A DNA stretch of 34,621 nucleotides from Spirochaetales bacterium (GTDB taxonomy: Bacteria; Spirochaetota; Spirochaetia; DSM-2461): assembly GCA_016936295.1 (NCBI GenBank), contig JAFGYD010000136.1, positions 1-34,621 on the forward strand. Direction: 5' to 3'. Both the position numbers and the translations under genes were made by a program. Below the pieces are notes generated by a model that saw only the letters and a list, made by a program, of their open reading frames with translations, was not told the DNA's origin and ran no database searches. Shown piece after piece: positions 4,556-28,845 of this stretch. The stretch's first letter is position 1, and each line of letters starts with the position of its first letter.

Positions 4556-5140
4556 ATGGTTAATATAGAGTCATATAACGATTATGATGAATTAGATATT
4601 TTTGATATTGATATATCGGGTGAGAAATTTGAATCTTTATCATTTTCAAATTCTAATTTTAACAGGTTTTCTGCAGTGGATTCCGAAATTTATAGATTAG
4701 TGTTTGATGGAGCTGAAATAAATTCATCAAACTTCTCACTGTCCAAATTTGAAGGGATAAGAATATATAAAACATCATTCAAAGAGTCAAAATTGTCGGG
4801 GACTTATTTAAATGAGGCATTTACTGCTAACTTAAGAATGGAAAATTGTAAATGCGACATGATGCAGTTAAGGTTTGGTAAATGTCGTGGAGCAGAGTTT
4901 AGTAATTGTAATTTTCAGGATGCTGATTTTCAGGGAACAGATTTTAGTGATGCTACATTCATTAATTGCGATTTAAGAAATGCAACTTTTACCAGTTGTA
5001 ACCTTAAAGGGTGTGATTTTTCCACTTCCAATACCCTTGGAATCAATTTAAACCCTAAGGATTTAAAGGGATTAAATGTTAATTATGAACAAGCTATATA
5101 TTTCTCAAACTTTTTAGGAATAATAATAAAAGGGAATTGA
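4556..5140 (+). CDS. Pentapeptide-repeat protein
   Basis: 194 residues from the chosen ATG at 4556, which has AAGGA eight bases upstream; an in-frame ATG at 4547 overlaps that ribosome binding site and is less likely. From about residue 25 to 165 the protein is built of five-residue units with a central F or L (for example NSNFN, GAEFS, DADFQ, GTDFS, ATFIN, CDLRN, ATFTS, CNLKG), which fold as a right-handed beta helix. No signal peptide is present, so it is probably cytoplasmic. The family has no single function; a few members mimic DNA and protect gyrase, but nothing here shows that role. Confidence 0.85.
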   Translation: MVNIESYNDYDELDIFDIDISGEKFESLSFSNSNFNRFSAVDSEIYRLVFDGAEINSSNFSLSKFEGIRIYKTSFKESKLSGTYLNEAFTANLRMENCKCDMMQLRFGKCRGAEFSNCNFQDADFQGTDFSDATFINCDLRNATFTSCNLKGCDFSTSNTLGINLNPKDLKGLNVNYEQAIYFSNFLGIIIKGN

Positions 5141-5173
5141 CCTGGAGTTTACTCTATGTTGTAACCTTCTCAA

Positions 5174-6517
5174 ATGATTAAAGATTTTCTTAAAAGAGTA
5201 GTAGCAATTACAATACCTGTTAGTTTACAAAATTTATTAGGTTCTTCCAGAAATTTAGTAGATACTATGATGATTGGAACATTAGGTGTTGTTCAGGTTG
5301 CAGCTGTTGGTGCAGCAGGAAAACCATATTTTGTAATGCTAATAGTTATATTTGGTATAACTAATGGTGCTGGTATTTTAATATCCCAATATTGGGGAAA
5401 TAGGGATAGTGATGGTGTTGGGAAAAATGTAATTCTTACTATTTTAACTTCAGTTTCTATTTCCATTGTTTTAGTTATAATTATAAAAATATTTTCCAGG
5501 CAGATTATTGGTTTAACATCTACAGATATTGGTGTAATTGACTTAGGCTCAGAGTATTTAAGAATCATTAGTACAAATTTAATTTTACAATCTGTTATTT
5601 TATCATTAAATGTAGGTCTAAGAAGTACTGGGCAGGTTAAAAGGTGTACCACTATCAGTTTTGTTGGTGTTTCATTAAATATTGTTTTTAATTATATCTT
5701 TATATTTGGGAAGTTTGGACTTAATCCATTAGGGCTTAAAGGTGCTGCTTATGGTACTTTTATAAGTTGTTTAATTGAAGCCTTACTAATTTTAATTGTT
5801 GCTATTGTGTTTAATAAAAAATTTAAACTATCAATAAGAAAATTTATCTCTTTAGTATCTGTTGTAGATGTAAAGCGTCTATTAAGTGTATCAATTCCAT
5901 TAGCTATTAATAGTTTTGCATGGGCCGGGGGTACATATATATATTTTATGATTTATGGAAGAATTGGAAGTAGCCAGTTGGCTATTATGACAATGCTGGA
6001 ACCACTAACATCTATTATGATCTCCTTCTTTAATGGACTTGCAACAGGTACAGGTATAATTTTAGGCCATTCTTTAGGAGTTAGAGACTATGTAAAAGTA
6101 TGGAGAGATGCAAAATTTGCTATTTTATTTGGTTTTTTACTAGGATTAGTGATTTTTACATCTGTATTTTTCTTTAGAGATACTTTTTTAGGATTTTTTT
6201 CTTCTATGCCCGTAACAACTTTGGAAATGGCTAGAATTGTTTATCTATTTGTTATGCTTAAAGCTCTTTTTATGTCCTACAATATTATTGTTGTTGTTGG
6301 AGTATTAAGGTCTGGTGGTGATACAAGATATGTTCTATTTATAGATATGCTTTGCCAATGGGCGGTAGGGATTCCATTATGCTTTATTGCTGCATTCTTT
6401 TTAAAGCTACCTCTACATTGGGTTGCTATGTTGGCTGCATCGGAGGAATTTGTTAAAATTTTTCTTTCGACAAAACGACTTAAAAGTAAGAAATGGATAA
6501 GAACTTTAATTAACTAA
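5174..6517 (+). CDS. MATE-family multidrug/cation efflux transporter
   Basis: 447 residues with about twelve membrane spans in two halves, the usual size of MATE exporters. MATE-like features include SLQNLLGSSRNLVDTMMIG near the start and LNVGLRSTGQVKRCTTIS with LNIVFNYIFIFG in the middle. The family exports cationic compounds by Na+ or H+ antiport in the inner membrane. The ATG has no convincing Shine-Dalgarno sequence. It follows the pentapeptide gene by 33 bp and may share its transcript. Its last 12 bases overlap the 3' end of the convergent small gene. Confidence 0.9.
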   Translation: MIKDFLKRVVAITIPVSLQNLLGSSRNLVDTMMIGTLGVVQVAAVGAAGKPYFVMLIVIFGITNGAGILISQYWGNRDSDGVGKNVILTILTSVSISIVLVIIIKIFSRQIIGLTSTDIGVIDLGSEYLRIISTNLILQSVILSLNVGLRSTGQVKRCTTISFVGVSLNIVFNYIFIFGKFGLNPLGLKGAAYGTFISCLIEALLILIVAIVFNKKFKLSIRKFISLVSVVDVKRLLSVSIPLAINSFAWAGGTYIYFMIYGRIGSSQLAIMTMLEPLTSIMISFFNGLATGTGIILGHSLGVRDYVKVWRDAKFAILFGFLLGLVIFTSVFFFRDTFLGFFSSMPVTTLEMARIVYLFVMLKALFMSYNIIVVVGVLRSGGDTRYVLFIDMLCQWAVGIPLCFIAAFFLKLPLHWVAMLAASEEFVKIFLSTKRLKSKKWIRTLIN

Positions 6518-6829: not shown

Positions 6830-7813
6830 ATGAAAAAGATAGCATTATTTAGTGTTTTAGTAGTTCTGGGAATGGGACTTTTCGCTAATGGAAACAAAGA
6901 GATGAAAGCGGATGCTTCTGCTGAGAAATCTTGGAAAGTTGAATCTGAAGATGGAGTTTTACCAGGAGTAAACCCTTTAAATGTTACAGGAGATATTATT
7001 ACAGCTGGTTCTTCAACTGTTTTCCCTCTTTCTGAAGTAATGGCAGAAAGATTTAAAGATGAAGGTTATAAAGGAAATATTACTGTTGACTCAATTGGTT
7101 CTGGTGCAGGATTTGAGAGATTTACAGTAACTGGTGAAACTGATATTGCAAATGCTTCAAGACCTATTAAATCACAAGAGATTGAAGCTGCTAAGAAAAT
7201 TGGTAGAAATCCTATTGAATTTAGAGTTGGTACAGATGCTTTAGCAGTAACTGTTTCAAAAAAGAATGATTTTGCAAAAAATGTTACTCTTGAAGAGCTT
7301 GCTAAAATCTTTGTATCTGATAAATGGAGCGATGTAAATCCATCATGGCCTAACGAAAAAATCTTAAAGTTTATTCCTGGTACAGATTCAGGAACATTTG
7401 ATTACTTTGTAGAAGAAGTGTTTAAAAAAGATTCAGCTCCTTTATTAGGTGCTGCAAATGTACAAATGTCAGAAGATGATAATGTTCTGGTTCAAGGTAT
7501 TGAAGAGTCACCTTACGGTATTGGATTCTTTGGTTATGCTTACTACGTAGAAAATAAAGATGCTTTAAATATCTTAAGCATAGAAGGCGTAGAAGCTACT
7601 AAGGCTACTGTAGATGCAGCAGAATATCCTTTAGCTAGACCATTATTTATATATTCAGATGCAACAATTATGAAAAATAAGCCACAAGTTGCAGCATTTA
7701 TAGCATACTACCTTGCGCATGTTAACGATGAAATAACAAGAGTTGGTTATTTCCCTGCTAACGAAAGTGAGCTAATGAATGGTAAAAATGCTTGGTTAGA
7801 GGCTAATAAGTAG
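6830..7813 (+). CDS. pstS: Phosphate ABC transporter substrate-binding protein PstS
   Basis: 327 residues. A Sec signal peptide ends at about residue 19 (GMGLFA, then NGNKE). No cysteine follows, so it is not a classical lipoprotein. The mature protein has the PstS phosphate-loop signatures AGSSTVFPLSEVMAE, SIGSGAGFERF and PGTDSGTFDYF, and TDIANASRPI, which surround bound phosphate. It delivers phosphate to PstCA in the periplasm. It is the first gene of pstSCAB-phoU and has AGGAG before the ATG. pstC starts three bases downstream. The operon is normally induced by phosphate starvation, in line with the box at 6745. Confidence 0.95.
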   Translation: MKKIALFSVLVVLGMGLFANGNKEMKADASAEKSWKVESEDGVLPGVNPLNVTGDIITAGSSTVFPLSEVMAERFKDEGYKGNITVDSIGSGAGFERFTVTGETDIANASRPIKSQEIEAAKKIGRNPIEFRVGTDALAVTVSKKNDFAKNVTLEELAKIFVSDKWSDVNPSWPNEKILKFIPGTDSGTFDYFVEEVFKKDSAPLLGAANVQMSEDDNVLVQGIEESPYGIGFFGYAYYVENKDALNILSIEGVEATKATVDAAEYPLARPLFIYSDATIMKNKPQVAAFIAYYLAHVNDEITRVGYFPANESELMNGKNAWLEANK

Positions 7814-7815
7814 TA

Positions 7816-8697
7816 ATGAATAGTAGAGTTGTGGAACGTGTTGTTAAAGCAGTACTAATGTCGTGTGCAATAGTAAGTGTTTTAATAACACTTGGGATAA
7901 TTCTTATCCTTGGTAAAGAGTCTTTACTTTTCTTTAAGGAAGTTAGTATTGTAGAATTTTTTACTTCTACTAAATGGCAACCTACAATTGAAGAGTTTGG
8001 TGTATTACCTCTAATAAACTCGACACTAACGACAAGCTTAATTGCAATGATAGTAGCAGCCCCTTTGGGGCTGCTTGTTGCTATTTATTTAAGTGAGTAC
8101 GCAAGTGAAAAGGTTAGAAGCATATTAAAACCTATACTAGAGATATTAGCGGGAATACCTACAGTGGTTTATGGGTATTTTGCATTAACTTTCATGACCC
8201 CTCTTTTAAGATTGATTTTTGGACAATCTAATGTTGAGGTTTACAATACTGCTTCTGCAGGACTAGTAATGGGTATCCTTATTCTTCCATTAATTACATC
8301 AATTACCGAGGATGCATTAAGAGCTGTTCCAAGGTCTTTGAAAGAGGCTGCCTTTGGTTTGGGTGGAAATAAACTTGTTTCTACCATGACAATTATAGTT
8401 CCTGCAGCATTTAGTGGTATAGCTGCTGGTTTGATTTTAGGTCTGAGTAGAGCTATTGGTGAAACAATGATAGTTGCTTTAGCTGCTGGAGCAGGTCCTA
8501 AATTTACATTTAACCCTTTTGAGGCTGCTGAAACTTTAACAGGATATATAGTAAGAATATCAGGTGGAGATGTTAGTTATAATACGGTTGATTATAATAG
8601 TATTTTTGCACTGGGTCTTCTATTATTCTTTATCACTCTGACCTTAAATATTGTTAGTAGAAAAATAGTTGAGAAGTTCCAGGAGGAGTATGATTAA
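7816..8697 (+). CDS. pstC: Phosphate ABC transporter permease PstC
   Basis: 293 residues, about six membrane spans. After the first span come a periplasmic stretch with STKWQPTIEEFGVLPLI and the permease core. The EAA loop is EAAFGLGGNKLVSTMTIIVPAA, followed by LGLSRAIGETM, a strong PstC/PstA signature. It forms the membrane channel with PstA, driven by PstB. The gene starts two bases after the pstS stop and overlaps pstA by eight bases, so translation is probably coupled. Confidence 0.95.
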   Translation: MNSRVVERVVKAVLMSCAIVSVLITLGIILILGKESLLFFKEVSIVEFFTSTKWQPTIEEFGVLPLINSTLTTSLIAMIVAAPLGLLVAIYLSEYASEKVRSILKPILEILAGIPTVVYGYFALTFMTPLLRLIFGQSNVEVYNTASAGLVMGILILPLITSITEDALRAVPRSLKEAAFGLGGNKLVSTMTIIVPAAFSGIAAGLILGLSRAIGETMIVALAAGAGPKFTFNPFEAAETLTGYIVRISGGDVSYNTVDYNSIFALGLLLFFITLTLNIVSRKIVEKFQEEYD

Positions 8698-25947: not shown

Positions 25948-25997
25948 ATTCATAATAGTTATATTTGTTTATAAATACAATTGGTAGGAGATGGAAA

Positions 25998-26924
25998 GTG
26001 TTAATTGGAATTGATGTTGGTGGAACTAATATTAAATCGGGTTTGATGGATATGAATAACAACTTGTTATTTGATCAATCTAGACCTACTGGGACTACTC
26101 AGGATGAGATTGTTAATAATCTTGCAGATATTATTAACGGGTTACAGGAAAAGGCTCGTAAAGAGTTTAACAAAGAAGTTCTAGGTGTGGGAATTGGTGT
26201 TCCCGGTGTGGTAAATAAAGAACTTGATCATGTTTTTAAATGTACAAATCTTGGTTGGTTCGATATTCCATTACGAAAAATTCTAAAAGAAAAAACAGAT
26301 TTCAATGTTTATTTAGATAACGATGCAAACCTTGCTGCTCTTGCTGAACACTATATTGGTTCTTTAAAAAATAAAGATACAGGAGTTTTGTTAACACTGG
26401 GAACAGGAGTTGGCGGTGGTGTTATTATTAATGGTAAACCTTATCGGGGTGGAAATGGTTTAGGCATGGAAATTGGTCATATGGTTATTGGTGAGAATTT
26501 TTATAACTGCTCATGTGGGAAAAATGGTTGCTTTGAAACATTTGCTTCTGCCACAGCAATTGTAAAACACTTTGAAAAACTGTTAGCCGATAATAATGTA
26601 ACAGTTGACCACGAAATATCTTCTAAAGAGATCTTTGAAAGAGCTGAAAAGGGTGAAGAGTTACCAATGAAAGCTGTTGATAGATATACAACATACTTGG
26701 CTACAGGTATTGTAAATGTTATAAATGCTATGGATCCCGAAGTTATATCTTTAGGTGGTGGAGTAGCTGCAGCAGGAGATTTCTTACTTAATATTTTAAC
26801 AAAAAAAGTTACAGATACTCTGTTTGTTAAAGGTTTCCCATCAGCAAAAATAAATTATGCTACGGCAGGAAACAAAGCAGGTATAATAGGTGCTGCTCTT
26901 TTAGTTAAAGAGGAAATAGCTTAA
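25998..26924 (+). CDS. ROK-family sugar kinase (glucokinase-like)
   Basis: 308 residues from GTG 25998, which has AGGAG seven bases upstream and yields the normal N-terminus (M/V)LIGIDVGGTNIK; a TTG at 25965 would add eleven atypical residues. ATP-binding DVGGTN (6-11), catalytic aspartate in YLDNDANLAALAE (106-117), TLGTGVGGGVI, and the zinc motif C171-x-C173-x4-C178 with H161 in EIGHMVIGE are all intact. It phosphorylates glucose or a related hexose in the cytoplasm. It is divergent from the ROK repressor and downstream of the sugar importer region, so it probably serves sugar taken up by that importer. Confidence 0.93.
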   Translation: MLIGIDVGGTNIKSGLMDMNNNLLFDQSRPTGTTQDEIVNNLADIINGLQEKARKEFNKEVLGVGIGVPGVVNKELDHVFKCTNLGWFDIPLRKILKEKTDFNVYLDNDANLAALAEHYIGSLKNKDTGVLLTLGTGVGGGVIINGKPYRGGNGLGMEIGHMVIGENFYNCSCGKNGCFETFASATAIVKHFEKLLADNNVTVDHEISSKEIFERAEKGEELPMKAVDRYTTYLATGIVNVINAMDPEVISLGGGVAAAGDFLLNILTKKVTDTLFVKGFPSAKINYATAGNKAGIIGAALLVKEEIA

Positions 26925-26925
26925 A

Positions 26926-27444
26926 TTATCTAATCAGGTTGTTTATAAGGTCATCTATATCAGCCTGATTGTAATCACTTTTTCTTTCATAGGCTAACTC
27001 TCTGTTGGCCTCTTTCAGCTTTTGAAGCAGACTATATATCATAATCATAAATATTTTATTACTGGCTATTGGGTTTTTTTTTACAAAACGTAGCATAGGC
27101 TCTCTATTTATTTTTAAAATTACAGAATCGTCTAAAGCTACAACATTTGCAGTTCTTTCCAGGTTTAGGAATATTCCAGCTTCTCCAAAAATTTCAGATG
27201 CACCTAAAGTGCATATATATGTATTGCCCTATTCATTATCAACAGTTACTTTGACATTTCCTTTTAGCACAGCAAAGAGACTTTTATCAATTTCCCCCTG
27301 TGTAATAATAATTTCATCCTGGCAGCAATGTAGTATTTCAGACTCTTCAATTAATTCTTCTACCTCTAAGTCTGATAAAAATCTGAATGGTAGTACTTTC
27401 TTTATATATGGGGTTATGGTCTCATTTATTTTTATTTTTTTCAT
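26926..27444 (-). pseudogene. Cyclic-nucleotide-binding-domain protein split by one in-frame TAG
   Basis: Read through, this is one 172-codon frame from ATG 27444 to TAA at 26926. The only interruption is TAG at 27229-27231 (codon 72). Before it lies the first half of a CRP-type cyclic-nucleotide-binding domain (IKKVLPFRFLSDLEVEELIEESEIL, then FAVLKGNVKVTVDNE). Directly after it, in the same frame, come the rest of the beta-roll and the phosphate-binding cassette (SEIFGEAGIFLNLERTANVVAL), helices and a short coiled coil (LLQKLKEANRELAYERK). There is no HTH and no membrane span. The gene is otherwise undamaged, so this is a recent nonsense mutation, a sequencing error or read-through. The first half alone (71 residues) lacks the ligand pocket. 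It ends one base from the ROK kinase stop. Confidence 0.75.
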
Positions 27445-27504: not shown

Positions 27505-27531
27505 CCCTTATATTTAATGTTAGGAGAAAAT

Positions 27532-28845
27532 ATGAATATAATAATTGGGCATTCCAATATGGATCTTGATTGTGTAGGTTCAATGGTTCTTGCTGGTTAT
27601 CTCTACCCCGATTATGTAGTAATTAAAAGTCGTTTAGCACATCCTGTAGCCAGAAATGTATTAAATCTTTATAAAAATAGTTTAAATTTTAACTCCCCCA
27701 GGATTTTAAAGGGGGAGTATATTAACAGTGTTGTTATTGTAGATACACGTACTACTAACAGAGTTAACGAATATTTTGAATTTGCAGAATATACAATAAA
27801 CGATGTTGAGAATGTAACTATATTCGATCATCATACTGCCGATTGCTGTGATATCCATGGAGCAGATTTACATTCCGAGGCGCTTGGTTCAAATGTAGCT
27901 ATAATGGTTAGAAAATTAATTGAAAAAGGTATAACTATAGATCCAACCCACGCAACTATTGCTCTTACGGGATTATATGCAGATACTGGTTCCTTTGAAT
28001 TTGAAACAACAACATCCCATGATTTTTCTGCTGCTGGTTGGTTAATATCCCAAGGGGCTCAGGTAAAAATAGTAAGAAAACTTTTAAAACCTTTAAAGGA
28101 AGAGGCTCAGATCGATATCTTTCATATAATAATGAACAAGTTAGAGGTTAAGAAAATTCTTGGGAACTATGTTTTACTCTCTTTTATAGAGCTTGAAAAG
28201 CAACAATCCGGAATTAATGCTGTTGTTGAAAAGATTATGGATATAGAGAGTCCCGATGCATTTTTTTTAATTGTAAGTATAAAAAAGGGTTCTCAAACTC
28301 TTATTATAGGTAGAAGTCAGATAGAAAGAATTAATGTAAATACTCTTCTTAAAACATATGGAGGAGGCGGACACTCTATGGCTTCATCTGCAAAAATCAA
28401 AGAGGTTAAAGATCCATCTTTTATAGATGATTTCGTATGGCACTTAAGGTGTTCAATGATTCCATCTATTTCAGCCGGGAGTTTAATGACCCACGAAGTT
28501 TACACTATAAACGAAGATGCCACTCTTCTAGATGCATCTATGTATTTGGAGCAAATCCACCATACTGGTTGTCCTGTTGTTAATAGGGATGAAGAGTTGG
28601 TTGGAGTAATTACTTTAAGGGATATTAGTAAAGGACGTATGGCCGAACAGATGCAGTCTCCTGTAAAAAGTTATATGGCTAAAAAGATAGAGACATTTAA
28701 TATTGATTCTACTGTCAGGGAGATAGAAAATACTTTTTTTAGTAAAAATATAGGACATATACCTGTTGTTACTAATAAGAAGGTAGTTGGGATTGTTACC
28801 AGGCAGGATTTTTTAGACCATATAAATGGCTCAAATATTGCCTAG
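27532..28845 (+). CDS. DHH-family phosphoesterase with two C-terminal CBS domains
   Basis: 437 residues from ATG 27532, which has AGGAG five bases upstream; an ATG at 27517 precedes that site and is rejected. DHH motif I is GHSNMDLDCVGS (6-17), the DHH triad is D99-H100-H101 in IFDHHTADCC, and motif ALTGLYADTGSFEF follows. The DHHA1 part ends with YGGGGHSMASSA (276-287). Two CBS modules follow at about 315-368 and 379-432. DHH-DHHA1 enzymes cleave nanoRNAs, pAp or cyclic dinucleotides, and CBS pairs bind adenine nucleotides and often gate activity. The architecture resembles the N-terminal part of some CBS-containing tRNA nucleotidyltransferase fusions, but no nucleotidyltransferase domain is present. 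Cytoplasmic. Exact substrate unknown. Confidence 0.87.
   Translation: MNIIIGHSNMDLDCVGSMVLAGYLYPDYVVIKSRLAHPVARNVLNLYKNSLNFNSPRILKGEYINSVVIVDTRTTNRVNEYFEFAEYTINDVENVTIFDHHTADCCDIHGADLHSEALGSNVAIMVRKLIEKGITIDPTHATIALTGLYADTGSFEFETTTSHDFSAAGWLISQGAQVKIVRKLLKPLKEEAQIDIFHIIMNKLEVKKILGNYVLLSFIELEKQQSGINAVVEKIMDIESPDAFFLIVSIKKGSQTLIIGRSQIERINVNTLLKTYGGGGHSMASSAKIKEVKDPSFIDDFVWHLRCSMIPSISAGSLMTHEVYTINEDATLLDASMYLEQIHHTGCPVVNRDEELVGVITLRDISKGRMAEQMQSPVKSYMAKKIETFNIDSTVREIENTFFSKNIGHIPVVTNKKVVGIVTRQDFLDHINGSNIA

Follow-up and report, generated by a model that had tools for sequence, protein, structure and literature searches.

A stand-alone cyclic-nucleotide-binding gene interrupted by a single in-frame TAG in a spirochaete metagenome-assembled genome

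Proteins of the PF00027 family include the regulatory cyclic-nucleotide-binding domains (CNBDs) of PKG, the cGMP-dependent protein kinase (3shr, 4z07), and the CRP-type regulators. The protein studied here resembles them in having one CNBD with the cassette FGE...RTA, and the solved structures closest to it in sequence are the tandem CNBDs of PKG (E about 1e-17). Unlike the PKG and CRP-type proteins, it stands alone without a helix-turn-helix or a kinase, it has an added C-terminal helix (LAYERK...Q.DID.L) and its reading frame is interrupted by a TAG. Our literature searches returned nothing bearing on this CNBD gene, nor an assigned function.

Recent nonsense pseudogenes of bacteria have a single premature stop in an otherwise conserved gene, and intact orthologues are present in sister genomes. 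The CNBD gene has the same features, and we saw nothing that sets it apart from them. With UAG recoding by pyrrolysine or a suppressor tRNA it shares only the in-frame TAG in a conserved gene. Unlike in such systems, no pyl genes or CUA tRNA were found in this 81% complete genome, RF1 is present and TAG is widely used as a stop. The interruption is an ordinary, very recent gene break or a sequence-consensus error, and it points to no new reading of the genetic code.

The interrupted reading frame

The window, by which we mean the whole stretch of 34,621 nucleotides that was analysed, is the complete contig C225 of a spirochaete metagenome-assembled genome (MAG) of 2.85 Mb in 284 contigs. The gene and its two neighbours lie as follows.

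25965..26924, plus strand: ROK-family glucokinase, convergent neighbour
26926..27444, minus strand: interrupted gene of the stand-alone CNBD protein (PF00027 match; homologues without the stop in 13 other family genomes)
26926..27228, minus strand: 100 codons after the TAG, with the phosphate-binding cassette (FGEAGIF...RTANV) and a conserved C-terminal helix, ending in TAA; by substitution counts still under purifying selection
27229..27231 (read 27231-27229), minus strand: in-frame TAG, codon 72; a sense codon in every aligned homologue and serine in both same-genus relatives
27232..27444, minus strand: N-terminal 71 codons, first half of the beta-roll; predicted 71-residue product without the phosphate-binding cassette
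27517..28845, plus strand: DHH-DHHA1-2xCBS protein, divergent neighbour, TAG-terminated (Pfam, a partial NCBIfam match and the stop codon)

The frame runs on the minus strand from the ATG at 27444 to the TAA at 26928-26926 and comprises 173 codons, or 172 residues if read through. The TAG at codon 72 is the sole in-frame stop ahead of this TAA, and zero frameshifts are needed. PF00027 (cNMP_binding) spans the TAG as one stretch, covering residues 40-124 of the read-through protein and profile positions 4-89 of 89, with a score of 67.6 bits (curated cut-off 27.5) and an E-value of 9.9e-19. The cassette with the conserved Gly-Glu and Arg, FGEAGIFLNLERTANV, is positioned downstream of the TAG and aligns with the homologues and with the PKG chains. 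At 30% GC, 100 open codons after a stop would be expected by chance with a probability of about 2.5e-4. The open segment is thus more than chance. The decisive point is that full-length homologues can be aligned with the CNBD segment position by position, before the TAG as well as after it. The claim of a sequence-only reading of this DNA, that one TAG splits a single continuous CNBD with no other stop, frameshift or decay in the gene, is borne out by these matches, by the frame open to the TAA and by the substitution counts given below.

In the alignments with the homologues and with PKG, the TAG falls in a short variable turn ahead of the phosphate-binding cassette, so the 71-residue product would be without the cassette. 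The first ATG downstream of the TAG (27096) comes 44 codons on and is already past the cassette. An internal restart at this position would probably not restore a CNBD domain.

Homologues and the age of the stop

The CNBD gene is present in 14 of the 26 family genomes, the window copy included, and only the window copy has the stop. A wider search at the order level returned the same 26 genomes. The relatives with homologues are Spirochaetales/Spirochaetaceae MAGs in public records, and the closest is SZUA-382, which is 71% identical and is taken to be the same genome as G016. Of the two same-genus copies, in G015 and G016, one is 71% and the other 67% identical to the window protein. Codon 72 is a serine codon in both of them and encodes Gly, Glu, Asp, Thr or Lys elsewhere, the alignment of the turn being loose in the distant homologues; row L014 was left out of this alignment for its wrong frame. 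The sequence-only reading had proposed to compare this codon in closely related strains and had named homologues that all end naturally here as the result that would speak against it. All 13 family homologues are open at this point. A second intact CNBD copy is absent from the assembled genome, where other matches are at most 29% identical.

G015 and G016 (the latter read from its public contig, locus L048) share with the window an order of seven genes: HK, ROK regulator, ROK glucokinase, CNBD, DHH-CBS, threonine-aldolase-like and AroA. The CNBD gene is open in both, and these are the intact syntenic orthologues looked for beside a recent pseudogene.

Changes specific to the window lineage were counted by reference to both copies of the same genus. 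Downstream of the TAG, its 100 codons carry 8 such changes that are nonsynonymous and 21 that are synonymous, against about 80 nonsynonymous changes expected if neutral, which gives a nonsynonymous/synonymous ratio of about 0.1. The window lineage has 3 unique amino-acid changes after the TAG, compared with 16 and 12 in its sisters. Assuming an earlier ratio of 0.1, the counts have a probability of about 0.035 if the neutral phase took 10% of the branch and of about 0.0005 if it took 20%. On this assumption the counts speak against neutrality over more than about 10% of the branch. The branch fractions are rough estimates, since pairwise comparisons come close to saturation at synonymous sites.

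Judged from these counts, the 100 codons are under clear purifying selection in the window lineage, which means that the break is very young or not real. Whatever the branch fractions, the stop would be of recent origin, missing in the majority of cells, or read through. The intact homologues and the substitution counts agree with the earlier statement that the change is very recent or an error.

Nonsense allele, consensus error or read-through

The best explanation of the sequence data is that the window probably carries a recent nonsense allele, a young pseudogene or a strain allele, of a normally full-length stand-alone CNBD gene. On this view the sequenced population acquired one recent nonsense mutation, at codon 72. 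Translation should then stop at residue 71, short of the phosphate-binding cassette; the truncated product would not be able to bind cyclic nucleotide and would presumably be degraded. The loss would be too young, or limited to some strains merged in the assembly, for further decay. The stop itself, the open homologues, the purifying selection on either side, the intact RF1 gene and the ordinary use of TAG are shown by the sequences; the presence of the stop in living cells and the loss of a working product are inferred. Conservation after the stop is equally expected from a recent nonsense allele, an error or efficient read-through.

We compared proteins from 1.2 Mb of G015 with 0.84 Mb (about 30%) of this genome, of which 216 kb were covered at an identity of at least 40%. 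A search for stop-split genes by codon usage alone, without a reference, was powerless at 30% GC, and the G015 protein comparison took its place. In about 72,000 homology-checked codons, the window TAG was the one true internal in-frame stop. At L107:7607 a second internal TAG seemed to be present, but there the alignment had run past a frameshift. Two further genes in the sample have frameshifts, with both halves conserved.

L113 (G000:C188) 4804-6062: sugar-binding-protein-like gene, extracellular, frameshift near 5440-5451; halves 66-71% identical to one G015 protein
L107 (G000:C122) about 7494-8407: homologue of a 1096-residue G015 protein, apparent frameshift near 7670, from frame -3 to -2

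Such isolated lesions at a low rate are as expected of young pseudogenes or MAG consensus errors alike. It is possible, if rather doubtful, that the TAG arose in assembly or consensus calling, through low coverage or merged strains, and that the gene of the living population is intact. The fragmented and incomplete assembly and the lack of decay around the TAG are consistent with this, and errors could also give the pattern of the two frameshifted genes. However, among assembly errors the exchange of one base away from any long homopolymer is not the most frequent kind, and only a single such internal stop was found in the checked codons.

The strong purifying selection on either side of the TAG would also fit a stop that is read through, by a suppressor tRNA, pyrrolysine or programmed read-through, to give a functional full-length protein. 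The rest of the evidence makes this improbable. The RF1 gene, prfA, is intact: its frame has 361 residues and closes with a TAG, and this terminal stop accounts for a TAG that had seemed to lie within the gene. In 180 genes that end together with their G015 homologue, the terminator is TAA in 124 cases, TAG in 34 and TGA in 22, and the adjacent DHH-CBS gene also uses TAG as its terminator. In the assembled genome, the best matches fell below the cut-off both for PylS (24 bits, cut-off 178) and for PylB (124 bits, cut-off 348), and they are probably to other synthetases and to radical-SAM proteins. The ARAGORN-scanned tRNAs and ten readable pattern hits included none with a CUA anticodon, with about 19% of the genome missing; the scanned stretches take in 35 of the 36 RF00005 matches and leave out a weak match on C84. 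No special RNA fold follows the TAG (z -0.60), and no homologue conserves a TAG at codon 72.

A recoded UAG should be seen in several conserved genes with an in-frame TAG or in a depletion of TAG as a terminator, and we found neither in the sampled part of this genome. General recoding of TAG is rejected because RF1 is intact and TAG-ended, TAG is a common terminator, PylS and PylB have no match above the cut-off and no CUA tRNA was found among those read. The sequence-only reading had likewise held TAG to be a normal stop and general recoding unlikely; its other option, a codon that is read through, gains no support here, and its proposed search for pyrrolysine genes or a TAG-decoding tRNA yielded none. 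That the TAG is read at a useful rate through an undetected tRNA or its context, as a switch giving little full-length CNBD protein, is very unlikely. We give even less credit to a 71-residue product that works as a shortened protein. Its ORF has a normal start, but none of the 13 family homologues ends at codon 72, the phosphate-binding cassette is absent and the downstream part is still constrained.

A recent nonsense allele has little significance beyond the CNBD gene itself, and it may serve as a clean case of such an allele caught ahead of decay. It also cautions against taking one in-frame stop in a metagenome assembly as a sign of recoding.

The neighbouring DHH-CBS gene and the CNBD family

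The CNBD and DHH-CBS genes are divergently transcribed neighbours in this genus only. The flanks searched around the CNBD genes of the other relatives (1.5-5 kb) contained no DHH-CBS gene, and in the more distant genomes none of the window neighbours turned up there. The pairing is a genus-level adjacency only. This weakens the earlier suggestion of a nucleotide-signalling pair, from which the adjacency within the genus stands.

The DHH-DHHA1-2xCBS protein (27517-28845) resembles the N-terminal half of an A-adding tRNA nucleotidyltransferase: it matches positions 1-426 of 880 in NF041569 and lacks the nucleotidyltransferase domain. The stand-alone CNBD proteins of this spirochaete family (the window copy, L005-L017 and L049-L055) are without an output domain and share the strongly conserved C-terminal helix.
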